From: Tepiditoga spiralis
GTDB taxonomy: Bacteria; Thermotogota; Thermotogae; Petrotogales; Petrotogaceae
Direction of reading: 5' to 3'
Assembly (NCBI RefSeq): GCF_014701195.1
Contig: NZ_AP018712.1
Coordinates: forward strand, 2,312,501 to 2,376,500
DNA length: 64,000 bases
Both the position numbers and the translations under genes were made by a program. Positions 33,076 through 39,901 of the stretch are shown in pieces; within the stretch, counting starts at the first letter, position 1; every line of letters begins with the position of its first letter. Under the pieces are notes generated by a model, which was not told the origin of the DNA, made no database searches, and was given only the letters and a program-made list of their open reading frames with translations.

Positions 33076-33107
33076 AATGTACGGATATTTAATCCGTACA
33101 TTTTTTT
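33076..33107. terminator. Terminator of the peptide transporter operon
   Basis: An 11-bp stem (AATGTACGGAT with ATCCGTACATT) is followed by seven T on the plus strand. The minus-strand chemoreceptor gene ends inside it, so it may act in both directions. Confidence 0.85.
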
Positions 33108-35433
33108 ATTTTAATTTTTTTATTAATTCATTTAATATTTGAAATAACTCTTCTTTTTTATTTTTTATATTTTCATATATTCTTTTAGCTTCATTTATAT
33201 TATCTTCTAAGATATACTTTAATATTTTTTCTGTTTCATTATGAATTAAATTATGAATATCCCCAATTTTTTTCCATTCTTCTTTATATAAACTATTGAT
33301 TTTATAAGAATTATAAAATATTCCAAAATTACAATATTTTGGATTAATTTCTAAATTTTTCAATCTCTTTGTTTTTAAAATATTCTCTACTTCTTTTAAA
33401 TAATTTATATGACTTTCTTTCATATTTTCTATTTCATTTATTAAATCCAAATTTGTATATAAAGTATATTTTTTATTATTTTCTGAATATCTTTCATAAG
33501 ATATTTCTTCATATTTTTTGGAATTTTCTGTTATTTTATCAAAGATCACTATTAATTCTTTCATATTTTCATATAACTCATCAAAAATTTCTGTAATTTC
33601 AAAAAGTTGTTTTGTTGAATTATCCATCGATTGTGAAATTTCAACTGTAGATGCTGATTGTTGTTGACTTACTGCAGCTAAATTAACCATTTCATCATTT
33701 ACTTCTATTGTCTTATCTGTAATATTTTTTATTTGTTCAAATAAAGTATCTGTTTTATTTGTTGAATCTATAACATTTTTATTTATTTCTTTAGTTTTTT
33801 TATCAACAATTACTATGTTATTTTTTATATCATTTAATATTGTTTCTATTTTTTCAGTTGCAATTTTTGATTTTCCTGCAAGCTTTCTTATTTCATCTGC
33901 AACTACTGCAAAACCTTTACCAGCTTCTCCAGCACTTGCTGCTTCTATTGCTGCATTTAAAGATAATAAATTTGTTTGTTCTGTTATAGTATTAATAGTA
34001 TTTACTATATCTGCTATATTATTTGTTTTATTAAATAATTCATCTACTGTAATCACAAATTCTGAAGATAAATTAGATAAATGATTCATATTATCATTAA
34101 TTATCTTTACAAATTCATTGCTTTTTTCAGAAAAATTAGTTAGTTCTTTAGTTATAAATACTATATTTTGAGATGTTTTTTCTATTGAAGTTGCTCCAGC
34201 ACTTATTTCTTCAACCCCTGAGTTTACTTCTTCAATTGAAGAAGATATTGAATGGATATTTTCCTTAGAATCATATATCTTTTCACCAATTTTTTTTATT
34301 TTTTTATTTTCTGAAGTTAATAAAATTTCCGTATTTCTAAAAACTACAACATTCTCTTTTAAATTATTTATTGTATTCAAAAACATTTTTCTTAAATTCT
34401 TTATTGCATTGTTTAACTTACTTACAGAATGAGTTATTTCATTTTTAGAATTTTCATTTACTTTTACTTTTATTATTAAATTATTATTTTCTACATTGTT
34501 TGAAATATATTGAATATCTTTTGCTTTTTTCACTATATTTCTTCCAATGATTATAAACAAATATATAGAAACAAATATTATTATTAAAAATACAATAATT
34601 AAACTCTTTCTAACATTATTAAATATAAGATTTAAAGATGTAATATTATCTTTTGTTATCAATACGCCAACATTTTTACCTGTATAGTCTTTAATAAGTA
34701 TAGTTACATACAAAAAATTCTTTTTTATAAAATTTATTTCTTTTTCTTCACCATTTATTAATTTATCTAATTTATCTTTTTTAATTAATTTAGAAAAATC
34801 ATCATCTTCAATAATATATTTATCTATTCTTTTTCCTGAGTAGTCATAAGGAACATAGCAAATATTATCTCCAATTATTGATTTTAAAAATTCTTTTGAT
34901 ATTGTAATTCCTATTTCAGATGTTCCTATAAATTCATTTTTAAAAAATACAGGTATTATACTTCTTATAACTAAACCAGCTTTACCAACCTCTATACCAT
35001 CTAATCTTTTTTTAGATTTGTTTGCTTCAACTAACATATTTCTCCATGTTAAACTATCTCCATATTTTTCTGGAGAATGCCATCTTAAAAATGAAGTTAT
35101 ATCTTTATTATGAAAATGAAGTGTTGACATATAAAAATCATTTTTTATAGTAGAATAATAACTTTTTAAATAATTATATAATTCATCTCTCTTTTGTTCA
35201 TAAAACAATTCTTTTACTTTTTCGTTTTGCATTAAAGTTATAAGAGATACTTCAGCTTTTTTATTTTCTAAATTTATAATAGTTTTTGTTTGATTAATAA
35301 TATCTCTTTTTTGTTTTTCAACTATAAAATTTTTAACCTTCACTTGTGCAAAAAACATAAATAACATTGACAAAATTAAAGAAATTACTATAACACTAGG
35401 AAAAATAAAATAAAAAAACTTTTTTAAACTCAT
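33106..35433 (-). CDS. Methyl-accepting chemotaxis protein with C-terminal CZB zinc domain
   Basis: This is a transmembrane chemoreceptor of 775 residues. TM1 is at about 8-30, followed by an extracytoplasmic Cache-like sensor of about 240 residues ([20 protein letters not shown]), TM2 near 280-300, a linker and the signalling hairpin with [35 protein letters not shown]. The last 120 residues form a CZB domain: His in KESHINYL (about 673), Cys in KYCNFGIF (about 700), and His-x3-His in GDIHNLIH (about 723-727) make the 3His/1Cys zinc site. CZB domains sense zinc or oxidants such as hypochlorite in other bacteria. Ligand here unknown. Confidence 0.9.
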
Positions 35434-35580
35434 TTTCTCACCCCCCTGTGTATTTTTAACTGTTTATTAATTTAATTATAACATAAAAGAAGTAATAAAA
35501 TTTTTTATTAATAAAAAAAATATTTATTTGTTACAAAAAATTAAATTTTATTTGTAGTTAAAATGCTAAAATATTATGAA

Positions 35581-35642
35581 AATACTCTTGGAGGTGAATT
35601 TATGTTTAAATTGAAAAAGAAAAATTTCCTTAAAAGAGTATT
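35581..35642 (+). promoter_or_regulatory. Long-range RNA stem around the pyr leader start
   Basis: AATACTCTT (35581-35589) pairs with AAGAGTATT (35634-35642). The 44-base loop contains the leader SD GGAGGTGA (35590-35597) and the leader ATG at 35602. Translation of the leader would open this stem. It may be a switch component together with the terminator hairpin downstream. Confidence 0.5.
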
Positions 35643-35679
35643 CTTATCTAAATTAATAATGATATCCGTCTCTATTTGA
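35602..35679 (+). CDS. Pyrimidine operon leader peptide (25 codons)
   Basis: The short frame MFKLKKKNFLKRVFLSKLIM plus ISVSI starts at an ATG five bases after a perfect GGAGGTGA. Its last four sense codons form most of the left arm of an intrinsic terminator, and the TGA stop at 677-679 sits at the loop and start of the right arm. The peptide is basic and has no obvious function of its own. The arrangement strongly suggests a translated attenuator controlling pyrCKDFE, comparable in logic to the pyrBI leader of enterobacteria. The frame and hairpin are seen; the mechanism is inferred. Confidence 0.7.
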   Translation: MFKLKKKNFLKRVFLSKLIMISVSI

Positions 35680-35694
35680 GACGGATATTTTTTT
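35662..35694 (+). terminator. Attenuator hairpin of the pyr operon
   Basis: An 11-bp perfect stem (ATATCCGTCTC with GAGACGGATAT) and a TATTT loop are followed by seven T. It lies between the leader peptide and pyrC, so it would stop transcription before the structural genes unless it is disrupted. Confidence 0.88.
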
Positions 35695-35710
35695 ATGGAG
35701 GTGAATAAAA

Positions 35711-36952
35711 ATTTTAATAAAAAATGGAACTTTAATTTCTCACAGTAATTCTGGTAAAAAAGATATTTTAATAAAGGATGGAAAAATAATCAAGATATCT
35801 GATCATATAAGCACTAAAAATGAAAAAGTTATTGATGCTTCCAATAAACTTATAATTCCAGGAATAATAGACATGCATGTACACTTAAGGTCGCCTGGAT
35901 ACGAATACAAGGAAACATTAGAAACTGGATTAAAAGCTGCTGTACATGGTGGAATTACAACTATTGGAATGATGCCAAACACTAATCCAACAATAGATAC
36001 TTTAGAACTAATAAAAAATTTAAATGAACAAATTAAAAAAATAAATTTATCAAATGTTTTATTTATTCCTGCATTAACTAAAAATAGAGATGGAAAAGAA
36101 CTTGTAAATATCTCTGAAATACAAAATTATGCTGTAGGTTTTAGTGATGATGGAAGTCCTATTAATAATACAAATTTAATGTTGAAAGCTTTAAAAATTC
36201 TTAAAAAGCCAATAATTGATCATTGTGAAGTTACTGGATTAAATGGAAGTATGAGAGAAGGTGTATATTCTAATTTGTACAAAATAAAAGGTATACCTGA
36301 TATTTCTGAAACAATAATGGCATTTAGAGATATTGAAGTTTCAAGAAATACTGGAGCTCATATACACATAGCTCACATATCAACTAAAAGAACCGTAAAA
36401 ATAATAAGAGATGCAAAAAAACAAGGCATAAATATAACTTGTGAAGCTACACATAATCATTTTTTATTTAAAGATATTGATGTAAAAAATGCAAATTACA
36501 AGGTAAATCCTCCTCTTCCAACACAAGAAGACTTAGAAGAGTTAATTAATGGAATAAAAGATGGAACAATAGACATATTGATAACTGATCACGCTCCTCA
36601 TTCAAAAGAAGAAAAAGAAAGAAATATTGAAAATTCTCCATTTGGAATTAGTGGACTTGAAACTTTTCTTTCAGGAATACTAATGATTTCTAAAAAACAC
36701 TCTATACCATTAAAAAAATTAATTAACATGGTTACTCATAATCCAGCAAAGATATTCAATTTAAAAAATGTTGGAGATATAAAAGAAGGATACAATGCTG
36801 ATTTAACTATCTTCGATACAAATAAAAATTGGAAGGTAACAGAAGAAACATTATATTCAAAAGGAAAAAATACACCATTTTTGAATATGAACATTCCAGG
36901 AGTAGTAGAAAAAACAATAATAAATGGTGTAATAAAATATGAGGAGGGATAA
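35711..36952 (+). CDS. pyrC: Dihydroorotase, apparently with a non-standard ATT start
   Basis: The zinc amidohydrolase closes carbamoyl-aspartate to dihydroorotate. The metal motif MHVHLRSPG lies at residues 55-63; later come HIAHIS, CEATHNHFLF and ITDHAPHSKEEK. Starting at the first ATG (35873) would delete the N-terminal beta domain. The true N-terminus reads ILIKNGTLISHSNSG and runs back to 35711, where ATT lies nine bases after GGAGG (35697-35701); no ATG, GTG or TTG occurs in frame before a TGA at 35702. ATT (or ATA at 35705) initiation is the simplest reading. A one-base error in the A-run 35707-35711 would instead allow GTG at 35701. About 413 residues. Confidence 0.88.
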   Translation: MLIKNGTLISHSNSGKKDILIKDGKIIKISDHISTKNEKVIDASNKLIIPGIIDMHVHLRSPGYEYKETLETGLKAAVHGGITTIGMMPNTNPTIDTLELIKNLNEQIKKINLSNVLFIPALTKNRDGKELVNISEIQNYAVGFSDDGSPINNTNLMLKALKILKKPIIDHCEVTGLNGSMREGVYSNLYKIKGIPDISETIMAFRDIEVSRNTGAHIHIAHISTKRTVKIIRDAKKQGINITCEATHNHFLFKDIDVKNANYKVNPPLPTQEDLEELINGIKDGTIDILITDHAPHSKEEKERNIENSPFGISGLETFLSGILMISKKHSIPLKKLINMVTHNPAKIFNLKNVGDIKEGYNADLTIFDTNKNWKVTEETLYSKGKNTPFLNMNIPGVVEKTIINGVIKYEEG

Positions 36953-36953
36953 T

Positions 36954-37658
36954 GTGGAAGGAAAGATAATATTAAAAAAGATATCCAAAGAATATTGTAT
37001 TTTAAAGGTAAAACTAACTGAAGATATGAATATCTTACCGGGACAATTTGTTATGCTATCTCATCCATTAAAAAAAGAGTTATCAAAACCGTTTTCAGTA
37101 ATGGACTTTGAAGATGGAGTTTTAACCTTTTTTGTAAAAATAGTAGGAAAGTTTTCAAAACTTTTAAGTGAGTTAAAAGAAAATGATATATTGAATATAA
37201 AAGGACCTCTTGGAGTTCCTTATATAAATAAAATAGACAAAAATTTAAAGTATGTTTTAGTAGGCGGTGGATGTGGTGCTGTTTCATTGATATACTTTAA
37301 AAAAATTTATCCTAATCTTGTTGAAAATGAACTTTATGGATTCAAAAATTCCAGTATAAGAAAAATTTTTGAACACAAAAGTTTATTTATTGATGAAGAA
37401 AGTGGAAATCCATTAGATAAATTAGATACTATATTAAAAGAAAAAAATGGAATAATTTTTTGTGGAAGTAAGGGAATGCAAAAAGCTTTATTAAATAAGT
37501 ACCCAAATAAAAAGATTTATATGTCCCTTGAAGAAAATATGGGCTGTGGAGAAGGAATGTGTAAAGGATGCCCTGTAATGACTACAAATGGTGTAAAAAT
37601 GGTTTGTAAAGATGGCCCTCTATTTGATTCAAAGGAGGTATTAGAATGGAAAGATTAA
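36954..37658 (+). CDS. pyrK: Dihydroorotate dehydrogenase electron transfer subunit
   Basis: This FAD and [2Fe-2S] subunit passes electrons from PyrD to NAD+. An N-terminal flavin-binding barrel (LPGQFVMLSHPLKKELSKPFSV) precedes an NAD-binding region (LVGGGCGAVSLIYF) and the C-terminal cluster motif MGCGEGMCKGC followed by MVCKDGP, i.e. C-x4-C-x2-C-x11-C. The open frame from 36939 overlaps pyrC; GTG at 36954 after AGGAGGG is preferred. It overlaps pyrD, its physical partner, by 13 bases. Confidence 0.92.
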   Translation: MEGKIILKKISKEYCILKVKLTEDMNILPGQFVMLSHPLKKELSKPFSVMDFEDGVLTFFVKIVGKFSKLLSELKENDILNIKGPLGVPYINKIDKNLKYVLVGGGCGAVSLIYFKKIYPNLVENELYGFKNSSIRKIFEHKSLFIDEESGNPLDKLDTILKEKNGIIFCGSKGMQKALLNKYPNKKIYMSLEENMGCGEGMCKGCPVMTTNGVKMVCKDGPLFDSKEVLEWKD

Positions 37659-38551
37659 AAACAAAGGTTTGTGGAATTACTTTCAATAATCCAGTAATAA
37701 CAGCGTCTGGCCCTTCAGGTAATGGAGAAGAGTTAAATAAATTAATTGATATTTCAAAATTAGGTGGATTTACATCAAAAACAATAACCTTAAATTCAAA
37801 AATTGGAAATCCTCCTCCAAGAATTATAAATGTTGATGGAGGTATGTTGAACTCAATAGGACTTCAAAATGATGGATATATTGAATTTAAAAAAAATACT
37901 GTACCCTTTTTAGAAAGTTTAAATACAAATATAATTGCAAGTTTAGGTGGTTACGATTCACAAGAATTTGAAATAATGATAAAAGAATTAAATAGTACAA
38001 AAATAAAAGCATTTGAATTGAATTTGTCTTGCCCCAATGTTAGTAAAGGAGGAGCAGTAATATCTCAAAATCCAAACTTAGTATATGAAGTAGTAAAAAA
38101 TGCAAAAAAAATTTCTAAAAAGCCTATTTTTGTAAAGTTTGGAATAGAAAATGTGGATGAATTGGTAGAAAACACCGTTGCAGCTGGTGCAGATGGAGTA
38201 ACTTTAATTAACTGTATAAAAGGTATGAAAATAGATATCAACACAGGAAAAACTATTCTAAAAAGAAAAATTGGAGGATTGAGTGGTCCAGCAATTAAAC
38301 CCATAGCACTTGCAACAGTATACAAGATAAAAAATAAATATCCTGATTTATCAATAATCGGTATGGGTGGAATCATGAATTTTGAAGATGCTTTAGAGTT
38401 TATGATGGCTGGTGCAAGTTTAGTTGGAATTGGAACTGGAGTAATGATAGATCATGAAATCCCAGTGAATATAATAAAAAATTTGAACAATTTTTTATTG
38501 AAAAAAAATAAAAAATTAGATGAAATTTTTTCATCTGCGCAGGAGGTATAA
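37646..38551 (+). CDS. pyrD: Dihydroorotate dehydrogenase catalytic subunit (class 1B)
   Basis: This FMN TIM-barrel enzyme oxidises dihydroorotate to orotate in a heterotetramer with PyrK. Motifs: NPVITASGPSGNGEEL at the start, IGNPPPRIINVDGGMLNSIGLQN, AFELNLSCPNVSKGG with the class 1 catalytic cysteine loop, and IIGMGGIMNFEDALEFMMAGAS at the phosphate site. Adjacency to pyrK marks it as class 1B (NAD-dependent). The length of 301 residues is normal. Start ATG at 37646 follows AAAGGAGGT. Confidence 0.95.
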   Translation: MERLKTKVCGITFNNPVITASGPSGNGEELNKLIDISKLGGFTSKTITLNSKIGNPPPRIINVDGGMLNSIGLQNDGYIEFKKNTVPFLESLNTNIIASLGGYDSQEFEIMIKELNSTKIKAFELNLSCPNVSKGGAVISQNPNLVYEVVKNAKKISKKPIFVKFGIENVDELVENTVAAGADGVTLINCIKGMKIDINTGKTILKRKIGGLSGPAIKPIALATVYKIKNKYPDLSIIGMGGIMNFEDALEFMMAGASLVGIGTGVMIDHEIPVNIIKNLNNFLLKKNKKLDEIFSSAQEV

Positions 38552-38552
38552 A

Positions 38553-39335
38553 ATGTTTTACGAAAAATACTTAAAAATGAGAGAAAAAAATAATTCTGTA
38601 TTGATAGTTGGGTTAGACAGTGATACAAATAAATTTAATTCTAAATTTTCAAAAGATGCAATTGGTATTTTTGAATTCAATAAATACATAATAGAGCAAA
38701 CAAATGAATATGTTTGTGGTTATAAGCCAAACATAGCTTTTTATGAAAAACATGGCTATAAAGGTATACAAGCACTCGAAAAAACTGTTGAATACATAAA
38801 AAAGTATACAGAATTACCAATTATTATCGATGCTAAAAGAGGAGACATTGGAAATACTGCAGCAGCATATGCAGAAGCATTTTTTAAATATTTAAAGGTT
38901 GATTCAATAACTATAAATCCCTATATGGGAATGGAAACAATAAATCCTTATATTGAATTAGAAAATAGCCATGTATTTGTTCTTGGACTAACTTCAAACA
39001 AAGGTGCTAAAGACTTTGAATTAGAAAATGACTTATACTTAAAAGTAATAAAAAATGTTAATGAATACAATAAAAAGTTTAAAGATAAAATAGGAATTGT
39101 TGTTGGCGCTACTAATGATGAACATATAGAAAAAATAACAAAAAATTCAGGAAATATGGTTTATTTGATACCTGGAATAGGTGCTCAAGGAGGAAGTATA
39201 GAAAAATTGTTTAAAGGATTGAATGGTTATAAAAATATAGTAATAAACTCTTCAAGAGGAATAATATTTTCTGAAGATCCTAAAAAATCAGCAAAAGAAT
39301 TAAAAGAAAACTTAAATAAAGCGAGGGGATTATGA
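38553..39335 (+). CDS. pyrF: Orotidine 5'-phosphate decarboxylase (long type)
   Basis: The enzyme converts OMP to UMP. The long-form family (about 260-280 residues) is shown by SVLIVGLDSD, GYKPNIAFYE, the catalytic IDAKRGDIGNTA, TINPYMGMETINPY and YLIPGIGAQGGS. ATG at 38553 follows AGGAGGTATAA; an open frame extends upstream to 38520 inside pyrD but lacks a ribosome site. It overlaps pyrE by 4 bases. Confidence 0.94.
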   Translation: MFYEKYLKMREKNNSVLIVGLDSDTNKFNSKFSKDAIGIFEFNKYIIEQTNEYVCGYKPNIAFYEKHGYKGIQALEKTVEYIKKYTELPIIIDAKRGDIGNTAAAYAEAFFKYLKVDSITINPYMGMETINPYIELENSHVFVLGLTSNKGAKDFELENDLYLKVIKNVNEYNKKFKDKIGIVVGATNDEHIEKITKNSGNMVYLIPGIGAQGGSIEKLFKGLNGYKNIVINSSRGIIFSEDPKKSAKELKENLNKARGL

Positions 39336-39901
39336 TGGATATTATGAACATTTTATTGGAAACAAAGGCACTTTTAAAAGGTCACTTTTTATTATCTTCA
39401 GGACTACATTCTGATACATATGTTCAATGTGCACAGGTTTTAAAGTATCCAAATTATGCAGAAGAATTTGGTAAAGAAATAGCAAATAAAGTAAATGTTG
39501 ATGTTGATATTGTTGTATCTCCTGCAATGGGTGGATTAATAATTGGTCATGAAGTAGCAAGTTCTTTAAAAGTACCTTTTATCTTTACAGAAAGAAACGA
39601 TGAAAGTACTATGGTGTTCAGAAGAAATTTTAATATAGAAAAAGGTCAAAAGGTTCTTGTTGTTGAAGATGTTATCACAACTGGAAAATCAACAAAAGAA
39701 GTAGTGAAGTTAATAGAAGAAAAAGGCGGAATAGTTGTAGGTACTGCATGTATAATAAATAGAAGCAATGAAGTAAAAATAAATAAAAAAGACCCCATAT
39801 ACCTTTTAAAAGTAGATGCTAAAACTTATACAAAAGAGGAATGCCCAATGTGTAAAAAAGGAAGTACACCAATAAAACCAGGAAGTAGAAAAAAAATTTG
39901 A
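39332..39901 (+). CDS. pyrE: Orotate phosphoribosyltransferase
   Basis: The enzyme joins orotate and PRPP to make OMP. KGHFLLSSGLHSDTYVQCAQ near the N-terminus is the orotate loop, and VLVVEDVITTGKSTKEVV is the PRPP-binding motif. The length of 189 residues is close to the archaeal/thermophile type. It is the last gene of pyrCKDFE; pyrB, carAB and pyrR are not in the window. The promoter of the next gene overlaps its stop codon. Confidence 0.94.
   Translation: MMDIMNILLETKALLKGHFLLSSGLHSDTYVQCAQVLKYPNYAEEFGKEIANKVNVDVDIVVSPAMGGLIIGHEVASSLKVPFIFTERNDESTMVFRRNFNIEKGQKVLVVEDVITTGKSTKEVVKLIEEKGGIVVGTACIINRSNEVKINKKDPIYLLKVDAKTYTKEECPMCKKGSTPIKPGSRKKI

Follow-up and report, generated by a model that had tools for sequence, protein, structure and literature searches.

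A translated-looking leader overlapping an intrinsic terminator as a probable attenuator of the pyrCKDFE operon in Tepiditoga spiralis

In Tepiditoga spiralis an intrinsic terminator stands immediately in front of a pyr operon, raising the question of how the genes behind it are expressed and what would set the readthrough. Within the window, the whole stretch of 64,000 nucleotides that was analysed, Pfam and NCBIfam profiles identified the downstream genes as pyrC, pyrK, pyrD, pyrF and pyrE (Table 1). The terminator hairpin, GATATCCGTCTC-TATTT-GAGACGGATATT, has 12 base pairs, or 11 if the closing G-U is not counted, with a folding energy of −17.9 kcal/mol and is followed by seven T, while shuffled versions of the region contained a mean of 0.1 terminator-like sites. 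It ends no other gene, since the gene 5′ of the leader (33106–35433) is divergent, encoded on the minus strand with its start at 35433. With a gap of only 10–16 nt between the U-tract and the possible first codons of pyrC, which leaves no room for a promoter, pyrCKDFE has to be expressed by readthrough. Judged from this layout, the sole role of the terminator can only be that of an attenuator of the pyr operon.

The left arm of the terminator is overlapped by a 25-codon reading frame encoding MFKLKKKNFLKRVFLSKLIMISVSI. An 8/8 Shine–Dalgarno (SD) sequence spaced 4 nt from the start codon, together with a stop codon in the terminator loop, is unlikely to arise by chance; of all 24 terminators in the window, only one besides that of pyr is overlapped by a short ORF whose SD is 5 nt or longer, and this SD is just AAGGA. 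A longer in-frame ATG at 35563, which sits at the presumed promoter, was set aside as leader start. This promoter is a possible one, suggested by an extended −10 element recognized by eye; a consensus scan yielded no sigma-70 promoter on the plus strand. A second hairpin at the 5′ end encloses the leader SD and start codon by an outer stem of 9 bp (AATACTCTT/AAGAGTATT), and in its inner part a portion of the SD is paired with AAATTTCC inside the leader ORF. The segment 35579–35645 folds with −15.7 kcal/mol (z −3.5; 6 of 1000 shuffles equally good), and the whole leader region reaches a z of −5.5, with 0 of 200 shuffles as good. These results bear out the initial annotation, which had described the 25-codon frame with its perfect SD (correct to the base), an 11-bp terminator with seven T overlapping the leader end and TGA (12 bp counting the closing G-U), the second stem around the SD and start (real, with 9 bp) and pyrC-K-D-F-E directly 3′ of the leader.

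Table 1 Features of the pyr leader and operon of T. spiralis (window coordinates).
Feature	Position	Strand	Remarks
Possible extended −10 element TGCTAAAAT	35564–35572	+	would give a transcription start at ~35578–35580
5′ hairpin	35581–35642	+	outer stem 35581–35589/35634–35642
Leader SD GGAGGTGA	35590–35597	+	8/8; 4 nt 5′ of ATG
Leader ORF	35602–35679	+	25 codons; ATG 35602, TGA 35677–35679 in terminator loop
Intrinsic terminator	35661–35694	+	hairpin 35661–35689; U-tract 35688–35694
pyrC SD GGAGGTGA	35697–35704	+	contains in-frame TGA 35702–35704
pyrC (dihydroorotase)	35705–36952	+	first codon probably ATA 35705 or ATT 35711
pyrK (dihydroorotate dehydrogenase electron-transfer subunit)	36939–37658	+	Pfam/NCBIfam
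pyrD (type 1B dihydroorotate dehydrogenase)	37646–38551	+	Pfam/NCBIfam
pyrF (OMP decarboxylase)	38520–39335	+	real start probably 38553; Pfam/NCBIfam
pyrE (orotate phosphoribosyltransferase, TIGR01367)	39332–39901	+	Pfam/NCBIfam

We consider it likely that this leader is a translation-coupled transcription attenuator of pyrCKDFE. Polymerase would transcribe the leader first and the terminator after it. A ribosome on the 25-codon leader would run to the UGA in the terminator loop and thereby cover the left arm, so that no hairpin could form and polymerase would continue into pyrC, whereas a leader left untranslated in time would let the terminator form and switch the operon off.

To compare this arrangement across the phylum, we gathered pyr heads from 103 Thermotogota genomes as grouped, of which 57 had a PyrD match at E ≤ 1e-45; T. 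spiralis is the sole member of its genus in the collection, and a scan of contigs with PyrC returned other phyla and no close relatives. Heads were counted where an intrinsic terminator lies just 5′ of the first pyr gene, and were thus chosen by terminator, not leader; the remaining terminators of these loci and of the window served as controls. A leader was scored automatically for an ATG, GTG or TTG start preceded by an SD of 5 nt or longer, a length of 10–90 codons, the absence of a longer ORF in that frame, and a stop codon located no further upstream than −14 nt relative to the left arm and no further downstream than +120 nt relative to the end of the hairpin. In the Petrotoga-like genomes G013–G017, the terminator preceding pyrC was excluded by eye and assigned to the upstream unit, because a good promoter follows it. 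Such leaders were found at 17 of 21 pyr-head terminators and at 15 of 168 controls (p = 3.6e-12), and when the SD had to be 6 nt or longer, at 12 of 21 and 4 of 168, respectively. This rule had been loosened from a first version, which gave 11 of 22 heads and 11 of 148 controls (p = 4e-6). Because loci from one genus are not independent of each other, we also counted genera, of which 11 of 13 pass (p = 2e-10). The four remaining heads carry leaders with weaker SDs (GGTAGG in G002 and G003, GGGGGG in G077 and G080).

In all, pyr heads in 13 Thermotogota genera have a terminator whose left arm is overlapped by a leader that looks translated. The leader peptides are mostly unrelated, even inside some genera, while the frame reaches the terminator, which answers whether relatives might keep the hairpin and lose the frame, as the initial annotation had considered: the frame is kept and the peptide mostly is not. 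In the diverged leaders of G077 and G080, alignment gaps come only in multiples of three. The stops fall into two arrangements. Ten heads have a stop at −11 to +21 nt relative to the start of the left arm (T. spiralis +19, G003 and G012 +20, G039 +21, G065 +12, G049 and G050 +2, G077 and G080 +1, G053 −11), and in G002, G023, G041, G045, G047, G048, G054, G062, G063, G068 and G070 the frame runs through the terminator, mostly extending to where the first gene starts. In E. coli, termination fell from ~90% to <10% when a stop codon lying 28 bp before a terminator was moved to 5 bp before it, and no such effect is seen at distances above ~27 nt (PMC4824070); therefore, both arrangements would let a ribosome block the hairpin.

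Several leaders in this set have features of their own. In G002 and G003, a conserved 57-codon ORF without Pfam match ends in a terminator before pyrBI (L133, minus strand, rc 2110–2310; L134, 2080–2280), with only ~30 nt between this ORF and pyrBI in G002, whose pyrBI may have its own translated-leader attenuator. The SD of the G041 pyr leader (L176, minus strand/L138) starts a few nt past the 3′ end of a tRNA gene, with which the leader may be cotranscribed. Furthermore, three genomes encoding PyrR have a second strong hairpin with a U-run inside the leader ORF (L139 rc 2616–2654, L153 rc 345–383, L154 rc 434–468), which may function either in PyrR binding or in pausing.

The comparison also bears on what the leader might sense. 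A leader reporting on the general translation or growth state, that is ribosome supply, instead of pyrimidines would fit the fact that any loss of leader translation would terminate, and the lack of peptide conservation makes codon-specific sensing unlikely. That the layout recurs before the pyr operons of many genera, much more often than at other terminators, suggests in turn a link to pyrimidine supply, and we regard a pure growth-state sensor as distinctly unlikely.

The start of pyrC in T. spiralis is itself unusual. The frame following the TGA at 35702–35704 reads ATA AAA ATT TTA ATA AAA AAT, corresponding to ATG AAA ATA CTT ATA AAA AAT at the pyrC start of relatives. No canonical in-frame AUG, GUG or UUG is found near this position, the next ATG/GTG/TTG in frame being at 35873, at the metal-binding DMHVHLR motif, and from the sequence pyrC thus appears to initiate at AUU or AUA. 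ATA or ATT is also found at the expected pyrC start in the Petrotoga-like genomes G013–G017 (L016–L018, L020, L021), at a distance from the SD close to that of ATT 35711 and in most of them just 3′ of an in-frame UGA ending the SD; G018, a sixth Petrotoga-like genome read, has an ordinary ATG. A membrane-transporter-like gene of T. spiralis shares the pyrC start region (U-tract and ATGGAGGTNNATAAAAATTTT) and has no canonical start codon either. Its match (G000:C1:759480-759509; L002/L191 ~1501–1530) and pyrC are the only two in the genome, and a second leader copy was rejected, as the other match covers the start region only.

With a leader stop 25–31 nt from the possible pyrC starts, the ORF might instead be incidental to a constitutively leaky terminator, or feed ribosomes to pyrC by reinitiation, as proposed for leaders that adjoin genes and boost their translation (PMC4833913). 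A non-AUG start is one where delivered ribosomes might help. The improbable match of SD, spacing and stop position described above and the conservation of the frame over the left arm across genera both argue against an incidental ORF, which we consider very improbable, and we retain the translation-coupled attenuator as the preferred reading.

We next consider PyrR, for which the initial annotation had advised a search of the genome. The PyrR model NF003549 matched in 42 of the 103 genomes as well as in the B. subtilis and Thermus controls, and had no match in T. spiralis. PyrR is absent yet the leader present in T. spiralis, G002, G003, G039, G045, G047 and G048. The parts, their geometry, the missing PyrR and the conserved layout are seen in the sequences, and we infer that the leader is translated and that its translation antiterminates. 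At gathering scores, Rfam detected nothing in the window and no pyr element in the relatives. At E ≤ 5 the only matches were two sub-threshold ones to RF00515, in G068 and, weakly, in G002, and none in T. spiralis, which has no recognisable PyrR box. The G068 match scores 32.5 bits, below gathering score, and is convincing because the PyrR loop matches. In both G068 and G070, which encode PyrR, the leader start codon is followed immediately by a PyrR-box-like hairpin (UUUGGUCCAGCGAGGCCAAA; GGUCCAGCGAGGCC), and the leaders, of 81 and 78 codons, both overlap the terminator. Elsewhere in the T. spiralis genome, the pyrBI gene has no terminator 5′ of it, and carA (CPSase small subunit) was not found in T. 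spiralis or most of its family, so that no car attenuator is available for comparison.

The G068 and G070 leaders suggest a variant of the same attenuator, in which leader translation in T. spiralis would be gated by an RNA-binding factor that replaces PyrR on the 5′ hairpin, located at a similar place. Against this stand the missing PyrR and a 5′ hairpin resembling no regulatory Rfam family, and no candidate protein was found; we hold such a factor to be unlikely.

A protein-free alternative is that the 5′ hairpin makes the translation-coupled attenuator a kinetic sensor of UTP, to which, granting the coupled core, we would assign slightly less than an even chance. The hairpin would shut over the leader SD once ~35632–35642 has left the polymerase; low UTP would slow transcription and lengthen the window for ribosome loading, turning the operon on, and fast transcription would turn it off. 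Folding of the emerging RNA predicts the SD to be ~65% unpaired until 35629 is exposed and ~30% afterwards. A point against this reading is that ~30% of the SD is still open in the full fold, where the 5′ hairpin and terminator are predicted to form together with no alternative antiterminator hairpin. The leader contains 17 U in 35598–35642 and 8 in 35643–35660, with no exceptional U tract (p = 0.39). Across the set, leader SDs are not more occluded than those of ordinary genes (p = 0.20), and unusually occluded SDs were dropped as a general trait. Leaders are richer in U than genes owing to background composition, their U content not exceeding that of intergenic DNA (p = 0.19), and U-rich leaders were likewise dropped. 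For the kinetic sensor, these set-wide comparisons are neutral. Of the attenuation switch first proposed for this locus, the attenuator layout thus stands, its left arm being covered by a leader frame in 13 genera; the switch may respond to pyrimidines, and the second stem may take part in it.

The best-known cases of pyrimidine genes controlled through a leader peptide are enterobacterial. In E. coli pyrBI, transcription–translation coupling across the leader blocks the terminator (PMC5021804). The T. spiralis leader shares with the E. coli/Salmonella pyrBI leader (pyrL) an ORF that reads across the intrinsic terminator preceding a pyr operon and the absence of both an RNA antiterminator and PyrR. 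It differs in that its stop lies in the terminator loop and not beyond it, in lacking a clear U-rich pause tract, in the 5′ hairpin pairing the leader SD and in its presumed control of pyrCKDFE instead of pyrBI. In the pyrR-pyrB-bbc-pyrC leader of Thermus ZO5, attributed to Van de Casteele et al. in 1997, a translating ribosome and not an antiterminator RNA reportedly prevents the terminator, and PyrR is said to have been proposed to stop leader translation, so allowing termination. G068 and G070 resemble this Thermus type in having a PyrR-box-like hairpin where the leader begins, in contrast to T. spiralis, which lacks PyrR and a recognisable box. Bacillus PyrR attenuators (RF00515) likewise place a terminator before pyr genes and require PyrR, an anti-antiterminator and an antiterminator, none of which was found in T. 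spiralis. The initial annotation was not aware of a described leader of this layout: a literature search short on subscription papers, and hence weak evidence of novelty, found no description of Thermotogales pyr leaders, but the kind is that of E. coli pyrBI and, reportedly, Thermus ZO5. That the T. spiralis pyr leader is a variant of an already known kind of attenuator is well supported.

Across the phylum, the output of ribosome versus terminator seems to be kept while the sensor changes. We tentatively extend this to a phylum-wide pyr attenuator with constant leader translation and an exchangeable sensor, either PyrR boxes where the leader starts, in some genera, or, without PyrR, a protein-free kinetic hairpin switch, a generalization that we regard as rather doubtful. 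In PyrR-less genera, among them that of T. spiralis, a hairpin formed by the extreme 5′ end of the mRNA would close over the leader SD unless low UTP slows transcription. If true, coupled transcription–translation would regulate pyr operons across Thermotogota, with and without PyrR, and the phylum would provide a natural series on the gain and loss of RNA sensors under a constant ribosome-versus-terminator output.
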